From Tribonema minus (lineage: Eukaryota; Sar; Xanthophyceae; Tribonematales; Tribonemataceae): 64,000 nucleotides of DNA. Made by a program: the position numbers and the translations under genes. Shown here one piece after another: positions 1 through 54,100 of this stretch. Under the pieces are notes generated by a model. It did not search any database. It was not told the origin of the DNA and saw only the letters and a list, made by a program, of their open reading frames with translations. Positions within the stretch are counted from its first letter, which is position 1. Each line of letters starts with the position of its first letter. The stretch lies in the NCBI GenBank assembly GCA_017506865.1, contig JAFCMP010000540.1, positions 372,001 through 436,000 on the forward strand, read 5' to 3'.

Positions 1-3000
1 ATCTGCGCGGTCGCGGGGCAGACCAACCGCGACCTGCTGGAGCTGGTGCGTGGCACGTCGCGCGGCTTTGAGCTGTCGCCGCTGCTGCAGTCGCTCACCG
101 CGGAGCTGTCCAGCGACCACGTGCCCACGCGCATGGCCGCGCTGCACTGGCTCAACATGCTGCTAGAGAAGGCGCCAGCGGAGATGGGGTGAGCGCTGCA
201 GCAAGTTGCAGTTGAAGTTGAAGTCAGTGCGGTCCTGCACTGGCTGTAGCGGTGGTCGCGCCTAGAGAAGGCGCCGGCGGAGATGGGTGAGCCAGCAAGT
301 TGAAGTTGAAGTTGGAGCGATCCCGCCTCCAGGCTGTAGCCGTGGTTGCGCGTCATCCTGAGTCGTCATGTGGCTGGCAAGCGAGGCCTTAGAGCTGTTG
401 TTGAACATTGAAACCGCGTCGTTTGAAATGTGACTGCACTGCAGTCACAGTACCCGTGGGTTACCTATCATGTCAACGCAGTGTTCAGCAGAGTGTGTCA
501 CACTGCTGGCACCTCCGCTCATCCTGGGGTGCAACAGCCAACGACAAGTCTGCTGGTTGCTGTTCCAAGGTGGTGCATGAGTTGCGTTTCATGATGTCGC
601 TGGGATGTGGTGCAGAGGGCATGGCCATGATTGTGGCGTGTGTGCGGACACATCGCACCTTCCTTAGCCCCCTCGCTAACAGACCCTAGCTGCAGTCCAC
701 CAATGGCACTCGGTGCCCCTTGTGGATGGTCTCTTTGCTGCCCCATGGGTGGCAGTGCGCCAAAAAGCAGCTCAGAGCCGCCCTCTCGCACCTTGCTGAG
801 GTCAGTGCTGCTGTGCAGCAGCACACCGGCAGCAACGTAATGAAAAGGATCTGCTACAGCTGAGAAGCTAGCGTGCGTACCATATTCACAATATGGCGCA
901 TACCATACCCACAGAATTCATGGTTTGCCACAGCTGTGGATAACCTCATTTGATAGATACGCTGCAAAGTCATGCGCCTCGCAGCAAGGTCCACTTGTAT
1001 TTGAAATGACACATTGTTAGTCATCGTGCTCTGACGGCCGAGAAACGTGATTGCAGGTGATGTCTTCTTGTATACTTTGTCATCCGACATTGGAAGTCAT
1101 TCACCGGGTGCTGCTTTCGCGTTGAAATGAACACCAACCATTTACGTTTGCACCTGATCCTGGGACACGAATGCAGTGGTGACACTCGTTGGCCCTTGTT
1201 TGCTGCTGTGCAGACGGTACATAGAAGATCTGCTGCCCGCGCTGCTGCACACCCTGTCCGACGAGAGCGATGAGGTCGTGCTGCTTAATTTACAGGTATG
1301 CGTGACTCTTTAGTTTTGACGTATACTTGAAGTACAGTGTACAGTAATGTGGGCACGTCATCCGCACACATCCGCACACCTTCTGATTGCTGCGGGGCGT
1401 GCGTGTAGTGCTGCCCGTAGCATTGCTGGCAAAGATCACGTTACCGTAAAGTGTTGCGTCAGCAGGCACCCTCATGGGTTGTCGGGGATCCAGTGCATGC
1501 TGACGTTGAGAATAGTTCAAACCCGCGTGCGACGTGATCAATGCTGCACGTCTCATCGGCAACGACAAGACACCTGCATCGTTGCACGCGAAAAATAACA
1601 CCAAGCACATCTCCATAACCACCCCTACCCTCCGTGTCTCTGCCAAACTACGCCCCACCACCACGACTGCGCACGCAACCGCTGCTGCTGCCTCCCATAA
1701 TGATGATGACGATGAGCAGGTTCTAGCGCGCATCGGCCTGGCGCAGTCTGAGTTCCAGCGCGTCCTCAACTCCATCATGGACGTCTTCACAGAGGACCGA
1801 CGCCTGCTGGAGGTGCGCGGCAGCCTCATTGTGCGCAAGCTGTGCCTGCTGCTCAACGCGCGCAGCATCTACATGGCGCTCGCAGCGGTGCTGGAGGGTG
1901 AGTGGCGCGCAGCACTGTGCTTGATAGGGCAGTGTTCAGAGGTGTGGCAGTGCTCATAATGGTTTTAGCAGGTGCTGGAGGGTGAGTGGTGCTCAGCGCT
2001 CAGAACTGTGCTGAGTGGCAGTGCTCCGAGGTGTGTGGCAGTGCTCATAAGGCTTTCAGCAGTGCTCAGGAGTGAGGCAGCAGTGCTCAAGGCGTGATTC
2101 TGGTGTGGTCAGCGCGCAGCGCGTCCCAAGCGCGGCTGCGCGCGAGTGCTTTGTATTCTCCTGACGACTTATTTTAATGATGGAACGCCTGTTGTAGCAT
2201 TGATGCTTTTGCTTTCGGCAAAACCTGAGAGCGAGAAACGCGCTGGTTGCAGCGTTCCAAAGCGTAGCAGCTATCAGACGTGCAGCAGAGGGGGGTCAGG
2301 GTTGAGGCAGTGCTCATCAGTGCAGCAGCGCTCTGGAGCGCAACAGCGCTTGTCAGTGCTTCGCGTTCCGGAATGCGGCAGCGCTCAAAAGTGCAGCAGG
2401 GCTCAAAAGCGAGACAGCGCTCACCAGAGCAGTTGTGGTTCGAAGTGCGGCAGTGCTCAACAGCGAGGCAGTGCTCACAAAGTGTAGCAGCGCTCAGATT
2501 GAGGCGGCGATCAAAATGAGGTGGTGCACGCCGCTCTTGGATTGCGGCTGAAGAAAATGCGCGTCGGTTTTACGAGCAGGACAGAACATTAGGGAATGGT
2601 TCATCACTTAGGCAGTGAGTGCACAACACGGGTCAGCGCTCTGTACTCGTACAGTCAGTGTGGCTGGCGCCTGGCTGACGCTGATCCTTACTGCAGTTGA
2701 TGGCTCTGTGTCAGAGTTGTGTCTATGATGTTTGAGTAACGCGTGTACAGACACCCCCCTGCCCCAGATCTTGCACCCCCCGATTCCGCCCGGCAGGCCA
2801 CCCTGTCAGGGAACAAGGGGCATTCAAGCCGGTAGGCTGAGCGCTTGATAGACATAAGTCATCATTTCATCAAGGTTTATGAAGAATTGCATCGAAGAAA
2901 AGACTCTGTGGGGGAATTATGGTTGATGCTTTGATATAACTCCAGAATGCGTTCTCAACCTTGAGATACAATTTGCGTACATTTTTGGTAAAAGTGCATC

Positions 3001-5684
3001 AGCAATGCAGCGGAGGGCATGAGGTGTGCAGCAAAATGCATCAGAGGCATCGCAAATGGTTCTGCCTCTCCCCAGATGCATTCCAGACTGATACAAGACC
3101 CCGTTCTCCTTACATTCACAACCGTTGCTGACGTCTGTAAACATTCACTCAGGGCCAATGACCAATGACCGCATCACTCATCACAGTTTACTGATAGCAG
3201 CAGCACCCTCCACCACTGCAGGCTGGTGGTGCAGCACCTTAACGTTACTGCGCTGACTGCAGTCCTACCTGACATGTATCTTTCCTCCCTTCCCCCCCTC
3301 TCAACGTACGTCAGTCAACAACAACTTCAAGTATCGTACCATGAACGTGCCAGCGCCGTTAACATCACTGACCGCCTCCCCTCCCCCCTCCCCCCCTCCC
3401 CCCCCCACTGCCACCAGGTAAAACAGATCTTCAGTTTGTCAGCCTGATGGTCCAGAGCCTCAACCTCATACTGCTCACGGCAGCAGAGCTCGATGAGGTA
3501 CGCCGCGCTTTAAAGGCCTCCTTCCAGCCCAACGCCGCACCTGAGGACACCCAGGTGTTCGCGAGCCTGTTCAGCTGCTGGTGCCACTCGCCCGTGTCCA
3601 CCTTCAGCCTGTGCCTGCTGGCCAAGGCGTACGATCTGAGCGCTGCTGTGGTGTCGGAGTTCAGCGACGTGGAGGTCACCGTGGGGTTCCTCATGCAGGT
3701 GAGCTTGGTGGTAACTGTCGTGTAACTGAAATGAGGGAGAGCCACAGATCTCCGTGTGCCGTCAAAGTGAAGCCTTCGTCTTGTTGCACATGCAAAATAC
3801 GACAGCGCAGGCAGTGAGCCTGAGCACTGCCCTCAGGTCAGACTTCAACCTTTTAAATAGTCCTTCTGGTCGGGTGCGCTTGGGAACTCAAGTTTTAGAT
3901 GCCGATGCCGTGTGCAGAACACCAACCATGTAGTGTAGGTGTACGATCAGCCGTCAGTAAGCACTGTGACAAATTGCGCATGACCTTAGCTTTGTGGTGG
4001 TGCCTCGAGTCCAATGACGTGCAGTGTCGCCATGGAATTCTGGTACAGTTGCGTGCCACCCGGTCATCAAAGCCTCAGAATCCCTAGCTTGGACGCTACT
4101 ACTCTCAGCAGCACAGCCGTTGCCTCCACTCATACTACAATCTGTAACTCAGCTGACCGGCCCTCGCTTCTGCCCCACCCCTCGCCCCGCCACCCCCCCG
4201 CTCTCTCCCCAGGTGGACAAACTGGTGCAGCTGCTGGAGTCGCCCATCTTCCTGCACCTGCGCCTGCAGCTTCTCGACGTCTCCGCGCCGTCGTACCCGG
4301 CGCTGGTCAAGTCGCTGTATGGCCTGCTCATGCTGCTGCCGCAGAGCGCTGCCTTCAGGACGCTGCGCGACCGCCTTGACGCCGCGTGCGCGCTGCGCCA
4401 GAACCTGGCGTACTCCACGGCGCCGCCGCCCGCGCAGCTGCCGCCCGCGCCGTCGTCCACAGGTACTGCCGAGTGTAATTGTATGTGATAAAGTGCAACC
4501 TGCGCTGCTGATGTATACTTCATAAAGTAGCCGCAAAGCGCACCTTGGACTGTCTTGCGATATGGCGTCAGAGAGCTTTTTGTGGCATGTGCAATAGGCG
4601 GGTTTGACCATGGTGCTTTTGTGTGACTCCATCCGACAATTTGTGTCTGCTGTGCACATGTCAGCGCTGCCGCCCCTGCAGGTGTGCAATTATCGCTGCT
4701 TCACAAGTGTGCCCTGCCAGGTGACTTGTTTACAATTCATGTTGTAGGCCACTGGAGAAGACGCATTCGCATGTGCAGCCCTGTGCACTGCTGCGGTGGA
4801 CACGCTTGCTACAATGCGTCACACGGAGTGTACTAGACAGCCCCATCGCCCTCGTCCATAGCAGCGCACAACATAGCTTGCATGTGTGATTTGGCAGCAT
4901 GACGAACCCCAATGTGCTTTGAGTTGATGCTGTCTCGTATCCCTGCGGCGCTGGCTTGTCGTCACGTGCGAGCAGTGCCAGCACCTGGTTTCCACTGCAT
5001 GCAGCAGCCTGCCTGCAAAGTTAACTTTTCTTGCACTCGTCTCCGATGCTGCCGGGAACAGCACTGCTCGCATCATTACGGTCGTACTGGCCATTGTGGA
5101 GCAGATCCCCATGCGGAAAGCAAATACCTGCGTTTACAAGTGCCATTGCACCCATTGCTGTGCATGCATATACTCACATTCCACTGCGTTCGCCGCCCTC
5201 GCTAACCCCCTCCCCCCCACGCACTCCCACCCCCATCCCCACCCCTACAGGCAGCAACAGCGATGCCGGCACGTCACCGCCCTCAACCACGTCCGCGCCG
5301 TCGCACACTGGCTGGCGCTCAAAAACCAAGTTTGTGTCCTCACGCGTGCGCTCGTCCACGACATCCGCGCCCGGCGACGGCATCGACGAAGGGGGGTTGG
5401 GGGGTGGCGGTGGAGGGGGAGGGGGGGGGGGCGGCGGCGGCGGCGGCGGGCCCGCGCAGCTGGACGTCTCGACGTTGCTGGCGCGCTTTGCGGCGGTGCA
5501 GGAGAGGCACGCCGACGCGCGCGAGGGGGGCTTCAAGTCGCGCTCGCTGCGGGGGATGAGCAGCGAGTCGGGGGTGTCGGTGGCGGCGGCGTCGGCGTCA
5601 GCGGCGGGGGGGGCGGGCGCATCGGAGGACGGCAGCGCCGGGCCGTCGCCGCGTCCGCTGCCGCCGATACCTCCGCAGTCATAG
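1..5684 (+). CDS. VAC14: VAC14, scaffold of the PIKfyve/FIG4 complex (3' part of gene)
   Basis: VAC14 is the HEAT-repeat scaffold that holds the PI(3,5)P2 kinase Fab1/PIKfyve and the phosphatase FIG4 on endosomal or vacuolar membranes. The gene is already open at base 1, so its N-terminal part lies outside the window. Exons fit in phase at 1-188, 1214-1295, 1720-1897, 3418-3698, 4213-4462 and 5251-5684 (stop). Recognisable family stretches are [16 protein letters not shown] (exon 2), [18 protein letters not shown] (exon 3), [11 protein letters not shown] and [20 protein letters not shown] (exons 4-5) and [15 protein letters not shown], the conserved FIG4-binding end. The last exon is not conserved: about 60 Ser/Thr/Pro residues, a Gly run near 5395-5450, then [18 protein letters not shown], which resembles the family's C-terminal helix. 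The recognition is firm; the boundaries of the tail exon are inferred from phase. Confidence 0.9.
163..353 (+). repeat. Tandem duplication of a VAC14 exon end with its donor
   Basis: The last 26 exon bases, the donor (GT at 189) and about 70 bases of intron (163-261) are repeated directly downstream (262-353; copied GT at 287). The exonic part of the copy differs at one silent position and by one missing G at the junction. Both units continue with a run of AAGTTGAAGTT. Confidence 0.8.
1882..2516 (+). repeat. Exon-end duplication running into a degenerate minisatellite
   Basis: The end of VAC14 exon 3 with its donor (GT at 1898) recurs 84 bases later (GT at 1982). Downstream the same sequence type, built on GGCAGTGCTCA, repeats irregularly at about 18-24 bases, densest from 2300 to 2510. 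It fills much of intron 3 and creates Ser/Gln-rich reading frames that I regard as by-products. Confidence 0.7.
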
Positions 5685-6110
5685 TGATTTGTAGTGGAGC
5701 GCGCTCGGACGGGCCTGTCTGGCTGAGCAGTGGCGCGGTGCTGCGGCAGCGGCAGCAGCGCGTTTGTTGTGTGCGCCGCCGCAACTGCCGTAATGACAAC
5801 GCTTAGGGGCCGTGTGTGCTGTCGCAGATGCCAGAACCGGTCCTGCGCCATGCCTCCATGCAGCCTCTCCCCCTCCTCCCCCCCATCCTCAGTTTTGTGT
5901 AAGTATGGCCAAGTACGGCCTGCACAAAAGAGATCAATGTCAATTGACGGTTATCTGACATGGGGTGTGCACTGCGTGATTTTTCTATTAGCCCGCGTAC
6001 GTACAGTCTGCTTTGCAAGCAACGAGCTCATCATCTTCAAATTTCGTGCAGATCACAAGAGACGAATGCCGTCCATACAGTCCAGTGTACATCGCTTCCA
6101 GTTCAAGTGT

Positions 6111-6158
6111 GTACTTTTTATTAATTCTCGCTCAGGGCGCGAAAAAGCCCAGATGATT
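6111..6158 (-). mobile_element. Shortest copy of the retroelement 3' tail
   Basis: Only the terminal 48 bases are present (GTACTTTTTATTAATTCTCG onward to CAGATGATT), nearly identical to the copy at 22455. The copies share one end and differ in length at the other, as expected for 5' truncation on the minus strand. Confidence 0.7.
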
Positions 6159-6300
6159 ACTGGTCGGGGTTCGCCGTTGTGGTACACGAGCTAAAACTTT
6201 CTCGAGAAAACAAGGTAGATGGATATTCCAGTCAGAATACAATAGTTGGGCCTTTGACACTTCGCACAAAGGTGGGATAATTCACACATTGTTCTTGTTG

Positions 6301-6566: not shown

Positions 6567-6628
6567 TAGAACCGCCGTTGCCTTCGTTCCATATTCTTCT
6601 GGACGCAGTCCCGCCTTGCCCGAGCCTC

Positions 6629-6922: not shown

Positions 6923-6962
6923 GAGCGGCGGCGGATGGGAGTTTACGAGTAAGGCCCAACCA

Positions 6963-10715: not shown

Positions 10716-10747
<32 letters not shown>

Positions 10748-13700
10748 CACCGTGGCGATCACCGCATACGTGCCGGCATGGCAGGATGTCGAAGATGCCC
10801 GCTACGCGCTGGAGCTCACGCGCGCAGCGTTTGAGTTCTTCAGTGCGCTCTTCGAGGGGGCGCCGTACCCGCTAAACAAGCTGGACCTGATATGCGTCCC
10901 CGCCATGCGCGGCATCGGCATGGAGAACTATGGCGCCATCACACTGCGTCAGGTGGGCATAGCGCGCTAATGTGCATTTCGCTGTCTTTTTACTTCTGCT
11001 GGACGCAGCTTCTGATGCCTGGCAGCGTGCCGCTCCCGTGACACTCGCAGCACCCGATGCTGTCGTCCCCGATGCTGTCGTCCCCGCCGCAAGCAAATCA
11101 GAGCATCGCTTCCTAGCTTTTGGAAGTGTCCATGTCTCTCTTGTGACTGCCTCAATTACCTTTGGAGGGGACTAAGTGCCACCGCTCACGGTTTCTGCCA
11201 TGACAGCAACTTCACCTCTGAACTCAACGCCAACTATGAGTTCAAGAGTTCACCTCTGCCTTCAACATGCAATCGATTTCATCTTCTACAGTGCACAGGA
11301 CCTCACGCTGGCTGCACGCGAAGGCGACATTCGTGCAGCGCCGATACGCTGCATGCCCAGACCGCGGCGCATCGCCCACCAGTGCCACAACTTCAACATT
11401 GCCTAGAACTCCTATTTCAACTCCGACCACACTGACTTCATCTCTGTTCGCGACCTAGGCTTTCGACTTCGCTGCTGCGCACGGACGCTGCGTTCGCGCG
11501 TCGGCGGCGCGCTGCGCGCCCCGTGCCACGAGGTGTCACCAGTGCCCCAGCTTCAAATTTGACCCGCACTCTGATCCAACTGCACCTCGGCACTGTCACT
11601 AGACAAAGGACAAATGGAACATTAATGAAGTGTGCAACACAAAATCAATTGCTGACTTGAGAATTTATGCTGACTTCAACATCTGTTTTACCAGGACTTC
11701 ATGCTGCTGCACGCGGACGCTGCGTTTGCGCGCCGGCGGCGCGCCGCGCGCCTCGTCTGCCACGAGGTCTCCCACCAGTGGTACGGCAACCTGGCCACGC
11801 CGCGCAGCTTTGATGACTTGTGGCTGAAGGAGGGACTCGCGCGCTACTTTGAGTTTGTGGCGCTGGACGCGCTGGAGCCGTCGTACGGCGTGTGGTCGCA
11901 CTACGTCGACGAGGTGATTTGGTGTGGCGAGGGGTGCTTGCGATGTACTTTGGTTGAGATTCTTGCTCAAGGCGCTGAGAAAGCCCAGATGATTGATGTC
12001 AAAGCTTTAAAGTACATAATTAATGTGTCATGTGACAATCTGGGAAGTGTCTCATTGACAATCACCTCCAAACGACGTCGCCAAAAGGCTTGCGATGTGC
12101 TTTGTCAAAACGTTGTACAGTCTAATTTCATTGCGCTTGGCGCGTGGAGCCAAGGTACAGCACGTGGCTCCTGTCACCATGTCAACGATGCCAGTTGAAG
12201 GTCATTTGCTGCGGCTCGTGAGTACCGCATTGGCGTGCCACAAGTACATCAGCCAGCGTAGAGTGTACCGTGTGGTGCATATGGTGCATAGGATGGCGGC
12301 TGCCGTGTACTCTCCATCTGATGCGTCATGTGACAGACCCGTCTGCCCCTTTTCCTTCCGTGTCAATCACACTTCTTGGGACCTGCACTGGTTTGACTAC
12401 ATTGTATTGGCTGGTCATGCCACGCGCACTTGCTATTTGCACGCATTGCTGCTGCTCCTGCCCAATAAAACCTGTTGCTGTCTGCAGCTCCTGTTTCCTG
12501 ACGCGGTACGTGGCTGCTTCACCAACCGACTGCGCTGCATGTGAGTGTTGAGGCGCTGTGGCTTCTTGAGCGCTGCTGCTGCTCACTGTCATCCGCATCT
12601 CATGATTCCAGAGCCCCACTGGGTGATGTCAGGCGGTCAGCAGGCGGGGGGTTCTGACGCACGAGCTCTGCCCTGTGCTCTGCTGCTGCGCTGCCTTCAC
12701 TGCATTGCCGGCTGCAGGTGATGTTCGAAGCGCTCATGGCTGATGCTCAGGTATTTACGCTGATGCTTTGGAATACATTAGAGTCCAAATATTCAAGTGC
12801 CGCCAGCTGTGATATCCGCAGTTCTTTCGCTGTGTGCTGCAATGCTGTGTTGTGTACAGCAGGTGGACATGCAGAGTAGATCGATGAAGGCTGCCAGAAA
12901 TGTCAGGCGGTGGATTGCAATCATCAGCTACTTCGCTGGTATTGTACTTTTTATTAATCTCGCTCAGGGCACGAAAAAGGCTTCAAACAGCCCAGATGAA
13001 TGGCGTCTAACTTGAAGCTTGCTGTACGGAATCTACATTTTGTAGGACAGTCTGAAAGTGTCTCAACGACATTGTACTATTTAGAGAGGGGCCCATATCG
13101 AAAGAGCCAATTAAGGTGCTGCATGTCACATTACATGTGTATTTAGGGTGAAGGGGTTTAAAGGCAGTCGCCGCTGTGCTCCATGCAAGCTTTTTGCCAT
13201 CACAATTGTCACCTGGCGCACTCCAAAGAGTAAATGCGTGGGTTGAGCAAAGCATTACCTGGGCAGCCACCCAGCATGACTCAAAGTTTCAACTTGCTTC
13301 CGTTGTTGCAGATCTGAATGGGGGCTGTAACAGCGCTGTGACAGATCACTTGGTGTGGAGCAAGGCACCTCTTGCGGCTGCTGGCTTTCTGTTATGTCCT
13401 CTTATCCATACCCAGAATGCATGACCGATGCTCTCGCGGTGACTATCACCGAAGCAAGCTTGTAAAGTGCATGTAATGCCGCACAGAGAATTCAAAACAA
13501 AGACGAACGCTCTCAACGATGGGGGGGGGTTCATGTCGCTTGTGCGGCAGCACGCCTCAGGCCAAAGACCTCTGTTCAGCAGTATTCACCTTCCACAATG
13601 CCGTAACCAGGCCGGCTCACTCATTCTCGCTGCGAATGGAGTAGCAGCGCCGCAGCAACGTGCCCGGCGCGCTGCAGTGCCTGGACGTTACACACCACAT

Positions 13701-16700
13701 CACCACAACTTCAACACTGATGAGCTGCAGCAGCGCTCAACAACCGAACGCTCCCCCATCCTCTCTCTCGCCTGTGCATGGCCCGTAGCGCCAACTGATT
13801 TTGCTCCGTCCTTTCTCTTCTGTGCGCCACCTGCACGTTTTTCACAGCCAGACTCGCACCCGGTGGCGCAGCAGCACCGCGGCCACCTGGCCAGTGTGCT
13901 GCTGAGCTTTGACACCATCACGTACGGCAAGGGTGCCAGTCTGCTGCGCATGCTCGCGCTGCACATCGGCCACGATGTGTTCATGGACGGCATGCGGTGA
14001 GGCACTTGAAGTGGCACACTTGAAGAACGCGCCCTTTTCCGAGGGTCTTGAAGTTGAGGTTTAGAGTTGCCACGCGTGTACTTGTAATAATCTGAACAGT
14101 GCGGTGTGTCATGCTTGGATGCGTTTACGCTTTGTCCTGTCAAGAGGTCTTGCGAGCATCTCGTACATGCCCATTCATTGCGCATGCGACATGTCTGCAG
14201 CCTTCGTTTGTTGCATGTCAGCTACTTTCATTTTCTGTGTGCTCTCACACGCTGCTTCTTCGACTCTAAATACCCCCCCCCCCCCCCCCCCCCCCCCATA
14301 TCTTAGCATATGTCCACCATGAACTCTCACATCGCCAATTCCACACATGTGCATGACACAAGTGGGGTCACAGCGTACTCTGGAGGCTCGTGGCAGGCTT
14401 TGCGCTGGACAGTGCAGTATTGCAGACGATGACCGTGCGCAAAGTTGTCAGAACTGGGTGCTCTGAGCGCTGCTTCGAGTCGCAGCGCTCAGCTATTTCC
14501 GTAACTGCCGCCGCCGTTCACGCACAACTGGCGCGTGCCGCAGGCGCCTCCTGCACAGACATCATTTTGGCAGCGTCACCCAGGACGACCTGTGGAGCGC
14601 GCTGCAACACGCGCTCGATGCCGCACGCGTGAGCAGCGGCGGCGACAACAGCGCTGCGTCAGAACTCACAGACGTCAAGGTAATCAAGTGTCAGCAGAGT
14701 GGTCGCCACCGTGTGACAGTCGCCGCTGCAGCATTACGCTCGCCATGAAGAGGGGGCCGTGCATGCACGTTGTGTCGTTGCGGCGCCCTGCTGCTCAAGC
14801 CATGCCGCAGCGGCGCAACGCACTTTCCATACTTATTGAGTATGATTGGTGTGATGTTTATGTGCGCTTGAAGTTGCCAATGTCCAGGTGAGACAATACC
14901 CCCTCACCTGATCAATATCTCGCCGTGAGCCACTGATGGGCCGCCGGTTTGCTGCGGACACACTGCCGCAGCCGCACCAAGCGCCTACAACCTGTCATAG
15001 AAGTATAGTTGCGTGCCAGACCAGGTACAGCAATCGCAACGCATAAGGATGCATGCGAGCGCGCAGTGCTGCAGCCTCAGCTACTGTGTCAATTACTTCC
15101 CATCCTCGGTGGCAGCGGCTCAGATTTAGTGAGCCCCTGCACGTGCGGTGTGCACCCACAAATCGCAACTGTTCTGCCATGCAATCTCGTCACTTCTAAC
15201 ATCTGCTATTGAACTGTGCGCCATCCCTTACCTGCCGCAGGCACTGATGGACGGCTGGCTCACTCGGAGGCACTTCCCTGCCGTTGTGGCAACGCTCAGA
15301 CCTGGGGGGCAGCTGCACCTGCGCCAGTACTGCTTCCGCTTGTACGACGACGAGGGGCCTTCACCGCCTGAGCATCATCATCATCAGCCCCCCCTCGCGC
15401 CCCCTGCGACCCCCCCTGCGCAGCAGGACCCCCCATGGCACATCCCCCTGCAGGTGATGGTGCATGTGTTGTGTGTTGAGGCTACAATGAGCGCTGGTTT
15501 GACAGGACAGTTGCACGCGCAAAGTTGCGCATCCCGCAATCTGCCTCAGTAGTCATTGTTGCGGGTATGTTTAGGCAAGCTGCGTCAGCATCACTGTAGT
15601 GCGGTCGGCTTCTCAGTGCTCTGCATGCGTTTGCCCCTGACGCTTGGTCTCAAGCCGTTGCCGACTGTTTTGGATACGCTTCAAACATACGAAGTATATG
15701 ACTTGGTGTGAGGAACGGGATTGCGTTTAGGATGCAACCCTCAGGTGCAATGACAGAGCTTACACGAGTGAACCAGCAACCACACATCTGGCACACAGCC
15801 ATGAAAATGACATACAATGCACTCGTGTCCCAGACGTGTACAGCCTTGCACTTAGGGTTAGGGTTAGGGTTAGGGTGAGCCGAGGCACTCAGAAGTGCAA
15901 CATCCTGCGAAGCACCATTGCCATTGCCAGCGCTGCCTCTGTTTCCAATAGTGGTATCAACAATTCAAGGGCGTTTCTCGTGCTGTGCAGTAATATCATA
16001 CACCGGCCATGAACTCATGTGACAACCAGCCTGACTGCCAGTGCCACAGTGTGTCCATGCATAAAACCCCACAGTGGTCTTGATATCATCAAGACTGCAT
16101 GCGACAGTATCAAGCAGCCGAAGCCTTGTGTTGTCAAGTACCTCAGAGTCTGGTCACTCACTTTGTACAGCGCAGCCTCCATCACATACGCACATGATGT
16201 GACAGCTGATTAACAAATCGGACACACCACTCATTGCACCAGCAGAGGTTCTCGTTGTACAACCATACTGTGCTCCCTCCCCACAGCCCACAATGATAGT
16301 TCCACGCCATACACCATCAAATCAGCGCTCAGCGCCATTGGTGTTCCCTCGCCACGCCACACCACTGCCTTTCCCCGCAGCGACCCCCAAATTTTATTCA
16401 GCCACTAAACCAGATGCTTTCATTACCGCCTACTGCGACCTGCAAGATTGCGCTGATGACAACAAGCGCAATCCACCTTTGCCGCAATTGTGCGCGCGGC
16501 TGCACTTGTGTCTATGCGCGCATGCCCAGGCGGTCAACTTGCACTGCTAGCGGTCCCCGCACGACAACGCGCACACATGCAGTTAACCTGGCCATCTTGA
16601 CCTCCGCAACACACGCTGCTGCCGCTGCCACCACCCATCGCCCGCCTCTCACTCCTCCCCCCCCCCCCCCCCCTGCGGTTGTCGCTCGCTGCCACCCACC

Positions 16701-23231: not shown

Positions 23232-25138
23232 TCAGAAGCTCAGCGTCCTCCGGAGGGCCATCATCTCCAAGTTGCGTTGCCGCTCGAGCACATCGTTGAG
23301 GTTGCCACGCGTCGCTGCCGTCGAGGGATCCTCAGGCCCGAGCGCCTTCTCCCTGATGGCCAGTGCACGCCTGTAGAGCGATTCCGCTTCCTTTAGGTTG
23401 CCTTGCTTCGCAAGCACGAAAGCGAGATTGTGAAGCGTCACCGCCATACGTAAGCGCTCACGCTCCAGCGCCTCCTCCTCAACTGCCCGTGCACGCCTGT
23501 TGAGCGACTCCGCCGCCTCTGGGCTGACTTGCTCCTCGAGCACATTGGGGAGCGTACCAGGCATCGCCGCCGTCTGTGATCAGATGCAAGGCTCTAGTGG
23601 TTAGCAACTGATGGGGACCGAAGCGAAGCTTTTGATACAAGCTTTGTGTTGCTCAGGGCCCGGGCTATGGAAGACACGAATACTTCTGAACGTCAACTAT
23701 GCACACATACACGACAAGGGGACACATGACCTTGTGAAACCGACATGGAGTCACCTAAAAGGATCAGAAATCCTCAGGACGAACTCTATTCAAACCACTT
23801 CTATTGCATTTGCACGCAGGGCAGCCTGTTGCAGCTTTCAAATTGGTGCTGCAGAACAGCAGCAGCAATGCAGTATGGCGACAATCAAGGGTGCTGATGG
23901 AGACAACTTGGGGCAAAGTATTGTTGCAGCGAGCTATGTAGGGTTTAGACAAAGACTGTAACAGTGCAGACAGGGCGGATGCTGGGCTCAAAACGCAAGC
24001 CAACAAGCATTTCGTTGCGAACCTCGAGCGCCGCCTCCTCTGAGCCTCGTGACTCCTCAATGGCCAGCATTCGCCTGTCCAGCTGCTCCGCCTGCTCGAG
24101 CTGGCCTTCGTCCGTGTCTGCGCCGCTGCAGTTGTTGTGAGCCCTTGCATTCGATGAATGCCGAGGCCCGAGTATCTTCTCCCTGATGGCCAGCGCACGC
24201 CTGTACAGCGACACTGCCTCCTCCCGCTTGCCTTGCCTCTGGAGCAGATTGGCGACGTGGTCAAGCGCCATCGCCGTCTCTGGATGCTCAGGCCCGAATG
24301 CCTTTTCCGTGATGGCCAATGCCCTTCTGTTCAGCAGCTCTGATTTGTTCAGGTTGCCTTGCTCCTCGAGCACATAGGCGAGGTTGCCAAGTGTCGCTGC
24401 AGTCGATTCATGATCAGGCCCCTGCTCCTGGATGGCCAGCGCTCGCCTGTAGAGCGACTCCGCCTCTTCCAGGTGGCCTTGCCCCTGGAGCAAGTGAGCA
24501 AGGTGTTCAAGCGTCACCGCCGTCTGCGGATGATCCGGCCCGAGGGCGGCCTCCAAGATGGCCAGTGAACGTCTGTACAGTAGCTCTGCCTAGTCCACTT
24601 TCCCTTGTCGATCGAGCACCCAAGCGAGATTGTGGAGCGTCGCTGCCGTCCGTACACGCTCAGGCCCGAGCGAGTCGTTGAAGGTGGCCAGCGCCCGCCT
24701 GTACAGCTGCTCCGCCTGCTCAAGCTTGCCTCGGGCCTGGAGCACGTCGGCGAGGTTGTGGAGCATGGCTGCCTTCGCTGAGGGCTCGAGCGCATCATCC
24801 TTGGTGGCCAACGCCTTATTGATCACCAGCTCCGCCTCTTCCACCTTGCCTTGCCTCTCAAGCACGAAGGCGAGATTGTTAAGCGTCAGGGCGAGGCTGT
24901 TAAGCGTCGCCGCCGACTGTGAATGCTCAGACGAGTCCTCCTTGATGGCCAGCGACCGCTTGTACAGCAGCTCCGCTTGTTCAAGCTTGCCTTGATCCAG
25001 GAGCACGTTGGCGAGACCGTGGAGCGTCGCTGCTGTCGAGGAAGTCCTCCTTTACCGCCAGCGACTGCCTGTACAGCTGCTCCGCCTGTCAAGCTTGCCT
25101 TGTTTGTGGAGCACAAGGGCGAGCTCGTCGAGCGTCAT
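23232..25138 (-). pseudogene. Kinesin-light-chain-type TPR protein gene, probably broken
   Basis: About twelve 42-residue TPR units follow one another on the minus strand. A typical unit reads AATLHNLA.VL..QGKLEQAE, then LYRRALAI.E..LGPDHP.T, the form found in kinesin light chain and in many algal TPR proteins that act as protein-binding scaffolds. A TAG at 24590-24592 sits inside the fifth unit, in frame on both sides, where Gln or Glu is expected. Near 25088 and 25035 the frame shifts while the repeat sequence continues. Between about 24020 and 23579 the repeats stop and resume after a CAG, which fits an intron. No N-terminal domain is seen. Either a recent pseudogene or sequencing errors would explain this. 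It is divergent from the AKR7 gene, 333 bp apart. Confidence 0.7.
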
Positions 25139-25470
25139 TGCCGGGTCTGAACACATTTGGCCCTCCTAATCGCCAATGCCCGTCGGATTACACACACCTC
25201 CTGCTCGAGTGCCCCCAGCCATGATCCCGGCCGGCAGGGTTCATGAAATTTCAAAGCGATGATGGTGACTCAATGTTGACCTCGTGGGAGCAGATCGGAA
25301 GACAGCACCAGAGGCACTGGCATACGAAGGTGGTGATGACGCATGTGAAAACGGCGCAGAGCAAAGCCCGTTGGTGTAATGTTACTCACACCGTGTACTT
25401 CAAGTTTTTCCGCATCGGAAGTTAGAAACTTGAAGTTGATCATGAAGTTGGCTCCGTAGACGCATCCCGC

Positions 25471-31367
<5,897 letters not shown>

Positions 31368-33003
31368 CGCGCGCGCGCGTGCTGGCATGAATCTTTTTAA
31401 TGTAGATACAGTACTGTGGCGGCAAGCCACCGCGGCAACTGCCCGCTGTAGTTCCGGTAGCGCGCGCGCACTGGCTTCATTGGCTTAAATATTAGTGTGG
31501 ATATGGTGCCGTAGCTGTTGGAATAGGGTGTGTGTGGGTATGTGTGGTCGGTGTGTCTTGTGCGTTGGTTTGTCTTTTGTCTGCTGCGTGATGTGTAATT
31601 GATGGCGAGCTACAGCTACCTGTACGGTCGCTTGCAGCTGCACCATTGGGATCTCGATGAATTTGTTTTTGTATTGGTGGGTCAAATGGTTGTCTGGCTG
31701 TGCAGCAAGGTGATTACAAGTGCCAGAAAGATTGAGCTTTTATGTTTGAAGTAAGTGATCTACTGGTTCCATTTGATCAGGTCTTTCTTGCTTAGGGTGC
31801 AAGGAAAATACATGAATGTTCCTGTTCGTGGTCATTGTCATCTTGGAACAAACTGACTGCTTACGCTGCCATGGCACATTCCAACTTTGCCGCATGGTAT
31901 TTCCATGAAGCGCCTAGGCTCACACTCTGCTGCAGCCAGCCTTGTACACCTACTGAAAACAATGGCGAACATGAAGTGGAGTCATGCATGGTGATATGTA
32001 GTGATCAAAAGCTGGCAATGCTGATACTTGTGAACAAGTGCACAGCATTCAGCAGTGGCCACAACTGCATAGAATGCGAGCTGCAGGTCTCTCTCTGCAA
32101 GTCCCAGAGCTCCCTTCAGCTGAGACAGGCGCGCCTATAGTACAACAGAGTTGCAGCCCCCCTGCAAAACGTGCACGTCCTGACCTGCACACATTGACTT
32201 TGTCGTACGGACACCAGCCGCTCTGCTGTCGCCGTATACTTTGCAACCCCAAAGTGGCTGTTGCGCAGCAGGCCGTCTGCCTTGTTTGTGGCAGCGCACT
32301 GCGCGACGCTGGCGTGCATCAGTGCCGCTCAAGCAAAGCTCCTACTGTCGTCAAGCAGCATCTGGCTCTATGAGCCCTGCTTTAGCTCGGCAATGCTCAA
32401 CGCTGCCGTTCGAAGATCGTTTCTAGCGCCTTGAGCTTTGCCTTTCGCATCTCGTGGGCCACGATCCAGCGTGCTAGCGAGGTGCTTCACCTTCGCTGCC
32501 GCAAGACCAGCAGCGGCGGCGGCACTCGGCGGTACCGAAAGAAGGGTGCGGAGGCAGGCCGTGTCACGCAAGCGCTGTAGATCCTGCGACAATCATGCTC
32601 GATTCTACAGCTGCTGCTTGCGGGCCAGGCGCAACCATCGCCTGACAGCGTCGCAAAGCTCACTGCAGCAGCCGCAATCAGAACTCGAGCTAGCCGGCGG
32701 TGACGTGTCGACCGGAGCTGCGCTTGGCGCTGCTTTGAGCCGCGTCTCGAGCTGCTGGTGATGAGCAACGTCGCTAGCTTTGCCGCGTGTTGGTCAGCGG
32801 CGTTCTGAGTCTGCGTTGCGGCGAAGTTCGTCGTACGTAGAGTCTGCTGCACGCAACAGGTTGCTACCGCAGCGACGCCTAAGTGCTTGCGTCTCAGCAA
32901 GCTCAACTGCAGCTTAAACTTCCCGCGGTGACGCTAGGCGACAAACCTCAGCTGCGCGGAAGTGCTAAGCTACAGATACAGCTTCGCTCTTTCTTCAGCA
33001 GCA
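31368..33003. other. Intergenic region between AKR7 and LAP
   Basis: Holds the AKR7 3' flank (TGTAA at about 31590) and the decayed minus-strand frame described separately. From 31600 to 32360 I see nothing more. Confidence 0.5.
32368..32930 (-). pseudogene. Decayed frame with helical segments, unknown family
   Basis: One continuous minus-strand frame of about 185 codons, GC-rich, contains amphipathic segments (VELAETQALRRCGSNLLRAA, ELCDAVRRWLRLARKQQL, DLQRLRDTACLRTLL, AAKVKHLASTLDRG) but is broken by three stops before its final stop at 32368. No donor or acceptor pairs remove them. It looks like a host gene remnant or a shortened end of one, lying head to head with the LAP gene. Coding shadow on the plus strand is less likely because that frame lacks order. 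Confidence 0.35.
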
Positions 33004-46476
<13,473 letters not shown>

Positions 46477-48151
46477 GCCGTGCTGCACAACGGAGGAGAG
46501 TCACCTGTTGCAGGAGGAAATGCTACACCGCTTTCATTCACTGCGGTCCGCAGGGGGCATGTGCGTTTTGCCTACGCGCCGTTTTTGTGTTGTCCTGTTG
46601 ATAGAGTGTCCTGTGTCGTGAGCTGGCGCGCAAGACGCGGTCTGTTGCTGAGGGCATAGCGCGGTCAGTCGCTCGTTGAGCACTGCTGCAGCGTGACAGC
46701 TGGCATGCTTGCTGGCTCAGACGGCAGTGCGCAGGCAAATCATCAGATTGCACATGATATGTATGCATTTCTAAAGTAGGGCTCCGCCTATACATGCTGT
46801 AGTGCGTTTCAAAATGCGATTACATAAGCGGGGAGGTCCAACAGTCATTGCCATATACTGTTGCAACCAGCTCGGGTTAGCATGCTCCGCATGCAAGTCG
46901 GGGGGGCACATAAGCAGAAATAGGTGCAGACAACGGGGCTGGCGGAGACTGCTGCACAAATATGTCCTCTAGCCCTTTGCGCAGTTGACAACAGGTCATG
47001 CGTCATTGGGCTCGGTGGCAGTACACATAAATGCGTACATCATCTTTTAGAGCGAGCCTCCTTCGTGCAAATGTGCGTTGAACTCAAATAGGTAGAAGTG
47101 TTCGCAGGGCATGCCATTCACTCAGTTTGAACACTTCAGACAAGCGCAGCACAGCAAGCCAAATTTCACGGCAGACACCACATGGGGCTTCATTCACACA
47201 CAGAACGTTACAATCCTGAGCACACTGTTGCTAGTTCCACGATCACTGGGAACAGGGCAGAAGAAAGCTGCATACTGAAGCCGCATAGCCTCCATTGGGG
47301 CAGCTGCAAACTCGAATGCCGGAAGGTGCGGAAGGACACACTTCAACAAACACCACATGTGGCATAGGCAATACGTGCTTACCCATGACACCATCCCAGC
47401 GCTCCTTCAACTTCATCTGCAAGTACCCTGTAGCAGTACTTCCTCAATCGGACCAACAGCACGGCACGTGCAACAAGGAGGTTGGGGCTGCTCAGTGCAC
47501 TTTGGCGGCTGGGGCTCCACAACCGACACAAGAATGAATCGATACTTCAAGTTCACCAGCGCAGAACTTGCACTGCTGCAGCTGGCTTATGCGGGCGCGG
47601 CGCGGGGCACCAACTTTTCTATGCCTTGAAGCACGTCTGGGTGGCGATGCAGCAGCCAGTAGCGGTGAGCCTCACTGCGCACAGAGCACAAAGACACAGG
47701 AGGCAGCACGCCACAGGCGTCAGTTTGGAGTTGCATGCGCAGAGCGTCGCTGATTGGGCGACAGATCACATCATGGGGCAGCCGTACAATGCATACATGC
47801 ATACTGGCGCCACGGTTAACACATGCTTCTAATCTTTCTGCACAAGCGCCCATTGCCTTAGCTCTTTTCAGAGCGATGGTCACTGGGCGCAGTAAGACCT
47901 CGCCAACGAGGCGGCGACAGCCACAAGCCTGTGTCAGATGGTACTTCAAAAAAATGCTTGCTCTCAGGTCCGTTCTCTGCGCTGAAGAGACGCAAACTAC
48001 CATGCCATGCATACCTGAAGGCAACCCGCATACAATGTGTACATACATACGCATCAAATGACGGTGCCACCCGTGCCGCATGAGTGCCTGAATGAGAATT
48101 GGTCACATTTGCCCGCCGCAAAAGCAGTTCTGATCACACTTGAAGTACCAC
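46477..48151. other. Intergenic region between LAP and the secreted-protein gene
   Basis: This is the space where two genes converge. I find no conserved frame, RNA gene or ordered repeat apart from scattered short tandem motifs. Confidence 0.5.
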
Positions 48152-51100
48152 CTAATGGCAATCACACAACAGCAACCGCACTATGCACGCCAGCAACATC
48201 CTGCCAGCAGCGCTCAACTCACCAGAGTCGGGCCTGACGGTCGTCCACGTGAAACTGCCGCTCCACTGGTTGGTCACACCCAGCCTGGTGAGGGCGATGG
48301 GAGGGGGGTTCAGGATAGCAACCCCCTTGTTGAAGAACTCCGCCATAACCTGTGTGGTGCAGGTGGATGCAGTGCAGGCAGTGCCGGCAGGCGCATTGCC
48401 GGCAAGGTTGGAGCAGCGGTTGACGCCACCCAGGAAGGGAAGCGTGTTGGGAGCGCTGCCACAGTTGGTGCTGGTGCGCGTGGTGCAGCCGCAGTTGTTG
48501 TTGCAGGAGGTGGCTGTGCACGTCGCTGTCTTGCCCATGAGAGCGTTGACGTGGATGTACTTGTAGCCTGCGGGCAGGCGGGGAGGAGCGCGAGCGGAAA
48601 GTTCAACATGAAGTTAGTTGGCTGTGGTGACAGGACGCTTTATAGGGGCGTGGCGGTGTCAATGCCTCAGATCTCTAAGGCCAATGACTCGATGGCCAGT
48701 GGCAGTGACTGAAGTGATAGCATAGCCTACTGCCAATAAATGGCAACACGAGGTCACGCTGTGTAGGCCACGACTCGCGCTTGTACCCTGGCACTCCCTG
48801 TCACGTCAATCTGGCCTGCAGCATTTTTGTTGGCTGAATTTGTCTGTTCAATGGGCATCCGCTGCATGACGGTCAATGTGCCTGCATTGAACATATCGTC
48901 AGGCCCTGCTACAGTCATCCCACAACCCATGAGCGCACGGTGCACGCACAGAGCATATGCCAGCATGTTCAGCCGACCTTTGACGCTGATCTAGTTGCGC
49001 TTAGAGCACATGCCGGTGTGTTGGCCCATCTTCAACCACAAGCATCTACTTCAACACCCTTTACTTCAACACCGTCTACGTGAACACCTTGTACTTCAAT
49101 TTCAACACCATGTAGTGGTGACTCACCGTTGTTGCGCTGCGAGAAGGTGCCTTCGTTCTGGCCCTGGGGGACGAATGTGTCGGGGAAGCATGTGCAGCTC
49201 ACACCAGTGCAGCCGCCAGGAGTCGCAGCTGCAAAGCCTCAGTAGTGGTTGTGCAGTTTGCACACGTTAGGCAGGCGTGGAATGTTGATCATGGCTCTTG
49301 CACATGCCCCAGGTTCAGCTGGTTTGCGTACATTATAATAAATGCATATATTATGGCGGTAGAGGTTTTTGACTGGCACTTTGCCTCTGCGTCGACTGTA
49401 TCAGCCATCTTTTGTCAACTAATTGTTCGCCCACAATACCCTGAAGCCCACTATGGCATGTCTGTTGCTACATCCAGGTCTCAAGAAGTACAGCATTGCA
49501 GGCCAATGTGCATTGCGCTATGGTGTGCTACGCAATCACACGCACCTTGTCACAACCGCGCTTGAGCTGCTGATTCAAAGTGAATGTAACAACTCGGTCG
49601 CCGACGCGTGAACGGGCAGAGGCGGCACTTGATGCATGAGTGGTCACAGTCGGTACTTACGTGTGGAGCACAGGCGTGCGTTGTCGGCAACAAACTGAGA
49701 GGGCAGCCTATTAGGCAGAGGCGTCAGCGCGGGCTTGGCCGGGTCGACAACCAGGTAGGGAAGGTCGCCGAAGTTGCAGGAATTGATGGGGGACCCGTAC
49801 TGAGGAGGCTCTGGGAAGATGTACTCTGCATGGGGCGCCAACACAGAAATGCAGTGTGATGTGTGACGCATGCACTGCAGGATTGATGCCATGTACACTT
49901 TCCAATGTGGCATGTGTCACATGAAGCGTCTTTCAAATGCTGTTGGCAGAGACAGGAAGCACGCATATTAGTACTTGAAGTATGTGTTCATACATGGGCA
50001 TCAGGCATCGGGCATAAGCCAGCGCAGTCCACATGTCACGTGAAGCACATGTTACACTTTGACATTCATCAGCCTGACTAAAGGTCGTAACAGTTAACGA
50101 CCCTTCTGATGCACTTGTACTGACGTACCTCCAATGGGGGCGCTGTACCGGCCAGAGTAGCGGGCGCACGCGCTGTTGGTGTTGAACGGCGTGGCAGCAG
50201 GATCCACGACATCAGCGCGGATGTTGGCAGGCAGACCCGCAGGGCACGGCGTGTTGGGGTTCTGCGAGGAGAGCTCCACCTTGTAGTTGCGGGCGCCTGT
50301 GGACCAAGAGCAAATAGGCATAGGGATGTAGCGTGAGGTGAAACCTGCCAGCAGACATCCTACGTCGGAACCGTCAAGAGACGTGCGCTGCAGTGATGTA
50401 GATTACACAAAATACTGCATCAGTCTCAGCATGCAGCACAATCTTGGTCAGATCCTGCTGCACAACAGCAGGCGTGAGGGGGTTCTGCGAGGAGAGCTCC
50501 ACCTTGTAGTTGCGGGCGCCTGCGCGTGGTGAGAAAAAACAGGGGTATGTAGGTATTGGATGTTTGCAGTGGAGTAGGAGAGCTCCGCCTTGTTGTTGCG
50601 GGCGCCTGCACGGTGAGCCAAAACAGGGGCATGTAAGTATTGGATGTTGGCATCAGTGGCATGCTGATGTCAACGTCACTCGAGCCTGTAATTTGTGTTG
50701 ATGCGTTTACGAGGGCCATAAAAGAGCCAGGATGTGCCGCGTGTGCCTGTCGTGACGTCACATGCAGCAACTTGGCCTGCCGCACCCGAGGGTTAGGGTC
50801 AGGAATAGGGTTAGCTTGCACACTGGTACAGCTACACAGCCCAGCATTTCTGCCCCGCATATGTGCACCATGGCGCCAGCTCCAAAGCTAAAGACGTGCC
50901 GTTGGGCACATTGCAGTAAAACATCAACTCAGTGCGCACTGAAAGTGCTAGCTGCCGACACTGCTAATGAGTCTCCGCGCGCAACGCAATCCGGCAGACC
51001 ACCTAGCAGCCGCCGTTTGGCGGATGGCACACTACTGCCTGGGCAGCTCACACTGAGCGGACTTCATTCAACTTTCTCTACCTCAGGGATGAATGTAAAG

Positions 51101-54100
51101 TATACAGCGTATGCGCCCGTGCGCACTGTGCCATACAGCTGCCGGTGTGCGCCCGCGCGTTGAAGGTACAATGCACCTTGCTGCCTGTACGACACTCGTA
51201 CGTAGATGCGTTGTATCAATGACAACTGGGCGCACGCAGACAAGGAATGTGTATGCACCTGGCAGGTAGTACTCATCGTAGAGGCCAATGTCATTGACAT
51301 CCCACAGCCAGCGGCCAACGGGCACCGCCTGCTGAATGCCCAGGCTGTCTGCGATCTTGCGCCACTTCTTGGTAGGATCGGTGGGGCAGGTGACTGCGAG
51401 GCGGTGAACGGGATAGGGTGTGTGCACATTCATCAAGATTACCATTCATGAAGACGAATTCATTCATGAAGCGAAGAAAGGTGACGCAGTGACCATCAGC
51501 GAGCCATGCGGATCATTGCTAGCAGGCTCGCTGCAATCCTTGCAGCACATCTTTGGACACCACCACGAGCAGCCAAAGTTGAATGAAGGCACAGTAAGGG
51601 CATCAGCAGCGCTATCAAGGGGGTCTGGACCCCCTCGGTGCTGTACTACACGTCTGCGTGTGCCTTTTCACAGCTGCGCAGACCACACATTTCAATCGTT
51701 GAGTCGCTAGACAAGTCTGTCAAAGAATGCTTCAGCAAAGCGCCAGCTACTCTTGCCCTGCGCACAACCCCGAGGCAAACACCATGTACTTGATTCACTT
51801 TTGCTCGAGGAGCGGAAGCCCAATGAAAAATCATTTCAAAAATGGAAGATATGCGCCTCTCGTGCTCGTGTCAAGCGTGCGCTGATGCGCGTGTGTGACT
51901 GCAAACATCGTGTACCAGGAGCCAGCCACTCACTGGAAGAGTTGACCTTGCAGTTGGCGGGGCAGGCAGCAAGGCGACTTTCTTTTCACACAACGTTGAG
52001 CGACCATTCGTCTATTTTCGCCCAGCAAGCAGGGGCGGAGTCAGCAACTCACTTGACTGGAAGATGTTAACCTTGCAGTTTACGGCCTCCGTAACAGCGC
52101 CGAGGATCTTGCCCGCGTGCGTCCACGCCGCGCCGGCCACGGAAAAGGCACCGGCGCTTCCGGCAAGACGGTTAAGTGCCGCATTGGCATTGGCTGCATT
52201 TGGCGTTGTTCCTGCACAAAGACCGGTGCGGGGCAAGCTGTTGTGAGCCAGACTCCTGTGTGTCGCCACGCATGCATCCCTAAGTAGGAGGCAACGCCAG
52301 CGCTTGCGGCGAGTTGCTCGAGGGCGGGGTTGCCAGCAAAGGTGAAGTATGGGAGGGTCAACTTGAAGTTCACAGCGACTTGCGCCCTGCAGCAAGTTGG
52401 AGCGTGGGCGGTTTCAGGGCCGGGATTGAGGTCCAGACGCGGCACCGAGCCTAGAGTTGAAGTTCAGGCACAGCGTCAACTTCACCTGTGTTGACGCCCG
52501 TGGGTGCGTTGCTGCTGGCAATGTTGCCGCCGAGGCCATCCAGTATCTCCTCGATGAAGATGTAGGAGCACGTGCTGGTGGGGGGCGTGCTGAGCCGCAG
52601 GTTGCTCTCCAGTCCCCATATCCACACGATGTCGTCTGCGCTCGTGGTCACGTCGTAATCGACGCTGACGCCGGCGTAGCAGATGAAGTCGCCTATCAGA
52701 ACCGACGCGAACAGCTCCGGGGACGGCACGTCGAAGGTTGGCGCTCCCACAGCGGGGCGGTTGGGTGCTGCTGAGGAGCACCAGCTGGCGTCGACGGTGT
52801 GGGGGACGCAGTGGGGGTAGGCGTTCTGCGTCCTGCACAGCGTGAGACGTACAAATGCAAGATACAGCCAACGTTTTGTCAGGGTCAGCTGCGGTGCTCG
52901 AGGCTGGGCCGCGGAGAGCAGAAAGGGGGCTGCACATGGCATTTGCTTGCGTGGTGTGGGAGGCGCAGTGGTGGTAGGCATTCTGCATCCTGCGTACGTA
53001 CATAACAGAAAACGTCAATTCCACGGGTCATGATGATTTTGTTCTGGAGAACTATTGAGGAATGGTTGTCTGATGAAGCGCGTTTCACCTACTTCAAATA
53101 GCAAGGGTTGATTTTTATCAGTGTACGTTCGGTTCCAGTCGATAGGTCAAATCATTGCTGTAAGAGTGCATGAGGATGCAGCAGATATATTCTGAGCGTT
53201 GTCAGTTTGAGACCGTTGCTGCACACAGATACTACCGCATGTAGCCCCTTCCACCGCGGAAGTCTTGAAGTTCACAGCTATGATAAGGGCCATCAGCAGG
53301 CCAGTCTACCCCGCGTATGCGAACCGTATGCAGCATTTTGTGATGCACACTAGACCGCACATGCAAGCACAATATACACATGTGGCCCAGCCCCCCCACG
53401 CCATTGGGACCCCAAGGCTGCAAACCTGTGCACCTATTGACCGTACTGCGTAGGCAGGACCGCGTGTATCGCTGCTACGGTGTTGCGCCACGTGGGGAGA
53501 TGCTCCAACAGGTCAACAAACAAAAAGGGTTACTGCAAAAAGGTACCATACCAACATACCTAACGGACGGGTTGTCGCAGTCTACTCCCCAGCGAGCGTC
53601 GGAAGCGTGCGCAATTCCGGCGATGCCTTCGGCGGTCCTCGGCCCGTAGCAGCCGTTGGGGTCATTGAGACGCACTTTGGCACCAGTTGGGGCATCCACG
53701 GTGGGGCCGACGGTCATGGTGCCATCTGCGTCAATGGTCTGGACGTATCCGCACTGGTTCACCAGCGATGCCGTGGGGGTGAGGTAGCAGAGGCCTGCGC
53801 AGTGCGTGGAACGCAGAGGTGCATGGCTCAGCAAATGTACTGGAAAGATGTACTGTCAGCATTGAAGTTGCTACGGCAGATCCCACGCGGCTCCGAAAAA
53901 ACCGCAACAACACCACAGAGCAGGCAACCTCTATGCCGTTAAATGCATGTGAGGCGGGGGCAACAAGAACAGGTTGCTGTATCAATGCGCGCTACACTAG
54001 TGCATGCAGGTGCAGTACAGTAGTGCTATCATGATGTGTCTCAATGCATTGGCTGCCCAGAATTAGCACACATAGTACTCTTGTGAAGTTCAAGATGTTT

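Follow-up and report, generated by a model that had tools for sequence, protein, structure and literature searches.

Short tandem duplications favour exon-intron borders in a genome sample of the yellow-green alga Tribonema minus

Why do introns of the yellow-green alga Tribonema minus, a xanthophyte, carry copies of the exon ends beside them? The question is raised by a stretch of 64,000 nucleotides (C537:372001-436000, hereafter the window) from the 158 Mb assembly of 554 contigs. Exon ends with their splice sites are duplicated in five of its genes: VAC14, an M1 peptidase, the aldo-keto reductase AKR7, the leucyl aminopeptidase LAP and a gene for a secreted-looking protein. A preliminary description had listed eleven such duplications. 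Each pair was recovered by self-comparison (BLAST scan and Tandem Repeats Finder, TRF), sequence reading and base-level alignment. Two questions follow: whether borders are favoured over other positions in genes, and by which process the copies arise and persist.

The window was analysed together with C537:1-200000, 20 kb each of contigs C100 and C200, 3 kb of C300 and 3.4 kb of C148. This sample of about 0.31 Mb represents 0.2% of the genome. For most genes, models were produced by a predictor that had been trained on this DNA and was run at a strict setting (a looser setting overcalled short exons). The scan of 310 kb yielded 89 direct-repeat pairs with an offset of 40-800 and a score of at least 24; shuffled DNA yielded 0 (one dinucleotide-preserving shuffle per 2 kb piece).

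The border excess is real in this sample and about three-fold over a geometric null. Clusters were scored on intron-intron columns alone (score at least 24), and conserved exon sequence was thus discounted. The null was computed separately for each region from the sizes of introns, exons and units, with uniform breakpoints. Of 32 genic clusters defined with curated exons, 21 spanned a border, in comparison to 6.9 expected (P 3e-8). The excess is considered real because it persists when only the intron parts are scored. The view in the preliminary description that borders are favoured beyond what random tandem duplication would give was borne out in this sample.

An earlier label set gave 21/32 versus 6.9-7.5. 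Three border rows are doubtful: C537:187334, a predicted gene edge against intergenic DNA and not a splice border; C537:132715, with an offset of 513 and an odd structure; and C100:8-1004, located partly outside the mapped gene. Their removal left 18/29 versus 5.8 (P 5e-7), and omission of C100 and C148 left 11/16 versus 4.7 (P 9e-4). The regions chosen neither in the preliminary description nor by similarity (C537:1-200000, C100 and C200) had 13/20 versus 4.7 (P 3.6e-5), 10/17 versus 3.6 with the doubtful rows removed (P 5e-4) and 7/9 versus 3.2 without C100 (P 0.011). The sample is small and dense loci supply several clusters each. Counts excluded exon-exon clusters (4/53), intergenic clusters (3/53), clusters with an intron part below 24, C300, and the part of the array in a dynein gene that formed a row of its own at C537:60008. 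The C300 segment (L030, C300:20001-23065) is almost entirely a diverged, satellite-like tandem array with an offset of 143-155 bp. The border count is slightly low because VAC14 1883 and the LAP exon 11 3' pair did not form separate BLAST clusters, and because an NPC1-like cluster became intron-only, both copies being predicted exons.

An exon-masked search found 23 border clusters and 13 intron-only clusters. Some of these matches pair two intronic copies; since such copies match each other, some masked matches still hold exon-derived sequence. TRF on exon-masked DNA (older labels) gave a weaker excess: it detected 18 arrays, 14 of them intronic, and 9 of these could be assigned by reading to border cases, with two at one locus.

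Gene names in the window were upheld by Pfam matches: PF11916 for VAC14, PF01433 for the M1 peptidase, PF00248 for AKR7 and PF00883 for LAP, an M17 leucyl aminopeptidase (335 bits, for a protein with some exons inserted by hand). The secreted-looking protein of about 715 aa is encoded on the minus strand at 47553-55578; a Pfam search gave no match at E 0.01. The duplicated borders are as follows.

163..261, plus strand: VAC14 functional unit with exon end 163-188, donor GT 189 and intron part (reading, alignment)
262..351, plus strand: VAC14 intronic copy with donor copy GT 287 (80% over 99 columns; offset 98)
1883..1966, plus strand: VAC14 second functional unit, exon end and donor GT 1898 (TRF, alignment)
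1967..2066, plus strand: VAC14 second intronic copy with donor copy GT 1982 (offset 84)
11299..11384, plus strand: M1 most diverged upstream copy, acceptor and exon 5' end (reading, BLAST scan)
11465..11544, plus strand: M1 upstream copy of the exon 5' end, acceptor copy just before ~11459 (85% over 86 columns)
11695..11780, plus strand: M1 functional acceptor border and exon 5' end (PF01433, alignment)
27330..27385, plus strand: AKR7 functional exon 3' end and donor GT 27379 (alignment; donor used in P0001)
27452..27507, plus strand: AKR7 intronic copy with donor copy GT 27501 (offset 122; 7/7 exon-part differences synonymous)
29774..29827, plus strand: AKR7 functional exon 3' end and donor GT 29823 (alignment; P0001)
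29881..29935, plus strand: AKR7 intronic copy with donor copy GT 29931 (76% over 55 columns; offset 108)
31341..31374, plus strand: AKR7 coding end with stop codon (by eye; P0001 ends ...CPLYFR)
31434..31470, plus strand: copy of the AKR7 stop-codon end in the 3' flank (offset 93; by eye, not listed by the BLAST scan)
36642..36719, plus strand: LAP exon 7 3' end and donor GT 36672, functional (used in transcript-derived P0121)
36747..36825, plus strand: LAP exon 7 intronic copy with donor copy GT 36777 (81% over 80 columns; offset 105)
38794..38852, plus strand: LAP exon 9 3' end and GC donor 38841, functional (alignment, protein record)
39004..39060, plus strand: LAP exon 9 intronic copy with GC donor copy 39049 (83% over 59 columns; offset 208)
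39902..40735, plus strand: LAP exon 11 tandem array of five intronic copies, acceptor and exon 5' end (TRF, self-comparison)
40736..40865, plus strand: LAP exon 11, functional (Pfam, P0121)
40826..40895, plus strand: LAP exon 11 3' end and donor GT 40866, functional unit (alignment)
40996..41065, plus strand: LAP exon 11 3'-end intronic copy with donor copy GT 41036 (offset 170; alignment, reading)
50248..50299, minus strand: secreted gene, functional exon 5' end and acceptor, border 50296/50297 (self-comparison, alignment)
50471..50522, minus strand: secreted gene, first intronic copy (50519; 96% over 52)
50557..50608, minus strand: secreted gene, second intronic copy (50605; 73% over 52)
52763..52836, minus strand: secreted gene, functional exon 5' end and acceptor, border 52832/52833 (BLAST scan, alignment)
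52925..52993, minus strand: secreted gene, intronic copy (52989; 76% over 74 columns)

Offsets of the window pairs range from 84 to 236 bp, in agreement with the unit size given before. TRF reported the second VAC14 pair as 1883-2066 with period 84 and 2.1 copies. The upstream copies of LAP exon 11 start at 39955, 40124, 40266, 40425 and 40582, the functional exon at 40736. Among the weakest cases are the third M1 copy (11275-11384 versus 11672-11780, 66% identical) and the AKR7 29823 pair (score 27). The functional donor of LAP exon 9 is a GC, and its copy keeps the GC as well (38841, 39049).

The anatomy of the units was defined by 26 border cases aligned base by base under strict scoring, as loose scoring ran into unrelated sequence. 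Each unit comprises an exon end, its splice site and adjoining intron, copied in direct orientation. Donor and acceptor sides contribute 13 cases each. The exon part measures 11-86 nt (median 40) and never exceeds 45% of the offset, which is 84-371 bp (median 164). One TMTC case outside this set has an exon part of about 93-96 nt. For the youngest cases, the lengths of exon part and intron part add up to the offset: 99/98 for the first VAC14 pair, 181/177 for SSRP1 and 134/133 for dynein b. These are therefore true adjacent tandems, in line with the tandem arrangement given in the preliminary description. In the oldest cases the alignment barely extends beyond the exon part. Identity is 0.90 in the exon part (963/1075) and 0.85 in the intron part (1611/1905), which is expected with one exon copy under constraint. 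By reading, about 23 of 26 copies retain the splice dinucleotide; of the others, one has GC in place of GT, one has lost it and one could not be assigned.

The same structure was present outside the window, in the genes for SSRP1, NFU, an NPC1-like protein, the LAP paralogue LAP-B (C148), a TMTC-like protein (C100) and what we take, from sequence resemblance, to be a dynein heavy chain. It was very dense in LAP-B and TMTC. Three borders are duplicated in the dynein gene, one of them heading a 3 kb intronic array with an offset of 153 bp; this array (L011/L012, C537:57441-60402) begins with 27 nt of exon. The TMTC-like gene, with 16 borders, has 8 border clusters and 5 intron-only clusters. In the 3.4 kb read of LAP-B, the copied ends are exon 10 5', exon 11 5', exon 11 3' and exon 12 5', the last present four times including the functional one. 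The exon 11 3' copies match their own exon at 35/38 and 36/38 positions in LAP-A (the window gene) and LAP-B, respectively, and 28-32/38 between the genes. Since each copy is closest to its own exon, the comparison indicates that this border was duplicated twice independently, unless gene conversion evened the copies.

Are the inner copies used? The transcript-derived protein record P0121, evidently from a Tribonema and 99% identical, joins the outer copies at 4/4 duplicated LAP borders. The outer copies are likewise joined for AKR7, LAP-B and TMTC by the annotated records P0001 (AKR7A2, mapping to C537), P0211 (LAP-B, mapping to C148) and P0241 (TMTC-like, mapping to C100), and by transcript-derived P0242. 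The inner copies of these four genes thus sit in introns that are normally removed. Among the transcript-derived proteins seen, P0121 and P0242, only outer copies are joined. Two ideas of the preliminary description, intron gain by the copied units and use of the copied sites as alternative splice sites, find no support in the records for these four genes.

The substitution pattern is consistent with mostly decaying, non-coding relics. The exon-derived parts of 27 out of 28 pairs (one gave no alignment path) contained 71 synonymous and 69 non-synonymous differences. For this count, the frame richest in third-position G/C was taken wherever an exon was open in several frames, as was the case for about half of them. 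In predicted frames, codon positions 1, 2 and 3 had 91, 93 and 144 differences (third position 144/328). By our estimate, one constrained and one neutral copy would yield 40-46% synonymous differences, and two constrained copies near 90%. The copies are likely mostly relics because the observed 51% is close to the former. Coding constraint on inner copies as a rule was ruled out by this pattern; two cases, in AKR7 and LAP, stand out. The LAP exon 9 copy is frame-shifted, as judged by eye.

The duplications probably originate from fill-in and end joining, are frequent near exon edges, are made harmless by splicing and leave an inner copy that decays. Unit size and adjacency suggest that a staggered double-strand break, or two nearby opposite nicks, would be filled in and joined. 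When the unit lies across an exon edge, the outer splice site and exon stay intact and splicing hides the duplication, as the structures and the protein records for LAP, AKR7, LAP-B and TMTC show. With the outer copy still spliced, the intron merely gets longer, and the substitution pattern supports decay of the inner copy as a neutral relic. A unit inside an exon would not be hidden and would usually be lost. Some borders are struck repeatedly, yielding arrays. Breaks may be more frequent near exon edges; alternatively, a survival filter favouring edges could be the source of the three-fold excess. From classical work on splice-site competition, the more exon sequence a copy carries, the better it would be expected to compete, and the short exon part may therefore reflect selection against long exon copies as potential competitors of the splice site.

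Several observations weigh against this explanation. The 51% of synonymous differences lies slightly above the neutral estimate. The AKR7 pair 27330/27452, with 7/7 synonymous differences, and the LAP exon 11 copies look more constrained than neutral relics should be. Six versions of a 27 nt core in the LAP exon 11 array (39902-40766) encode VLGVARMLM with only synonymous variation, and the flanks vary more than the core. Breakpoints inspected by eye had no motif and no long microhomology, short at most. A general exon-proximal hot zone predicts that intron-only clusters lie near exons, yet they were not significantly crowded there (Kolmogorov-Smirnov (KS) p 0.46, n=11, two touching an exon). 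Without the dense C100 and the doubtful rows, the unselected regions gave a thin 5/7 versus 2.3 (P 0.037). The null assumes uniform breakpoints, and the gene models come mostly from a predictor trained on the DNA under study.

Could random tandem duplication suffice, with exon-internal units purged, intron and border units tolerated, and border units easier to see? Such a process accounts for the direct orientation, the intronic position of the copies, their decay and their non-use. The detection bias is certain, as 5 of 9 border clusters in the window are detectable solely via their exon part, and TRF had shown the weaker excess. A purely random origin is nevertheless unlikely. The intron parts alone still give 21/32 versus 6.9, the stricter set 18/29 versus 5.8 and the masked search 23 to 13. 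The exon part is also shorter than uniform placement in unit and exon predicts (KS p 1.3e-5, n=26). Another proposal is a process directed at splice junctions, in which transcription or splicing, through polymerase pausing, R-loops or exon-phased nucleosomes, would place nicks or breaks on both sides of the junction. Units would then reach about 40 nt into the exon on one side of the junction and about 110 nt into the intron on the other. The exon parts with their 11-86 nt and median of 40, shared by 13 donor and 13 acceptor cases, agree with this, as do the independent hits on one border in two paralogues and the excess among units that span a junction, set against intron-only units without significant crowding at exons. 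This proposal appears quite improbable, however. The AKR7 coding end, which has no splice junction, is copied too (31341 on, with its copy at 31434, read by eye), and so is the predicted gene end at C537:187334. The short exon part could stem from selection, and no anchoring motif was seen by eye at the breakpoints. The copied stop-codon end weakens any mechanism tied to splicing itself. Of the splice-junction-targeted process in the preliminary description, the border excess thus stands, and splicing or the splice site is a candidate target. A wider formulation, that junctions are hot spots of duplication in this lineage through breaks linked to transcription or splicing, with units reaching from about 40 nt in the exon to about 110 nt in the intron, and that introns grow by taking in copies of their own borders again and again, is put forward tentatively and considered doubtful.

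The copies might instead be functional, as alternative or backup splice sites or as regulated poison sites kept by selection. The intact dinucleotides in about 23 of 26 copies, and the purely synonymous differences in the aligned cores of AKR7 27452 and the LAP exon 11 copies, would fit such a role. It is very improbable given that substitutions are near neutral overall (71 synonymous versus 69 non-synonymous), that P0121, P0001, P0211, P0241 and P0242 show only outer copies, that the LAP exon 9 copy is frame-shifted and that the intron part of older copies no longer aligns.

Boundary-crossing tandem duplications are known as single events. In potato RdRp, a tandem duplication across an intron-exon boundary made a new spliced intron, and a second one of 83 bp occurred within the first intron (PMC4974935). 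The Tribonema units likewise cross an existing intron-exon boundary. Unlike the potato case, the inner copy is skipped, no intron was gained in the genes checked, and about thirty clusters occur in 0.3 Mb. In the Rogers model and in Drosophila cases, exonic tandem duplications become introns (PMC3443670, PMC2891723). The short tandem duplication that copies splice signals is shared with this model. Unlike an exonic segment turned into a new intron, the Tribonema units are part exon and part intron, and copy a pre-existing border. CST and Pol alpha-primase can fill in staggered breaks and thereby create short tandem duplications; the overhangs there measured about 43-50 bp (PMC8355091). The Tribonema duplications resemble these products in being short, adjacent and direct, with unit equal to offset in young cases. 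Most are longer than the fill-in cases, and a preference for exon borders is absent from the available text of that study.

Patch-mediated duplications in rice are likewise short, adjacent and direct. Other repeats in genes differ in structure. Introner elements are similar copies dispersed among introns, and share with the present units the occurrence of repeated sequence in introns; unlike introners, the LAP array (the one array tested) has 5 matches, all at LAP or its paralogue. Tandem exon duplication likewise places additional exon-like sequence in introns, as whole exons with both splice sites in the case of mutually exclusive exons. The aligned copies, in contrast, hold one exon end (11 to ~96 nt) and one splice site. 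In titles and abstract beginnings, with few subscription journals among them, no genome was found with a swarm of border-crossing duplications at unchanged intron number.

Further repeats were observed in the same DNA. A minus-strand gene at 23232-25222 consists of 126 bp (42 aa) repeats, presumably TPR units by resemblance; these are coding repeats and not border duplications. The genome is rich in short interstitial TTAGGG arrays, among them those of the window at 15852-15875, 28368-28391 and 42446-42463. The 18-mer (TTAGGG)3 has 11,474 genome matches (overlaps counted) versus 0 for the reversed control. The introns of the sample show a roughly 20-30-fold over-representation of telomere-type 7-mers, and C537 has a TTAGGG-type telomere array at its left end. 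TTAGGG arrays and local duplications per 10 kb amount to 9.6/28.7 in C148, 6.5/16.5 in C100, 2.5/3.5 in C200, 0.5/3.4 in the window and 0.3/0.8 in C537:1-200000 (terminal telomere counted); both densities co-vary across these five regions. The TTAGGG array at C537:71404 is flanked on either side by a direct repeat of 24 bp. A role of TTAGGG repeats as filler at duplication junctions was considered and rejected: only 3 of 21 loci, two at one locus, had flanks more alike than same-sequence controls (p<0.05), which argues against a general link. The motif ACTTCAA/TTGAAGT occurs 53 times in the window versus 6 expected (e.g., 1324-1334, 49972-49982), and TACTTSAAGT 10 times versus 0.2 expected. 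Over the whole sample, ACTTCAA/TTGAAGT shows strand symmetry, and its density in introns is three times that in exons.

Even if only mutation and tolerance are at work, the copies document that short tandem duplications are frequent in an alga. Should the border excess extend to the whole genome, introns of this alga would lengthen by capturing their own edges. The genome would then offer a natural series of duplicated splice sites of varied age for testing the choice made by the spliceosome, and the part of tandem duplication in intron gain and boundary shift would become testable in one organism.

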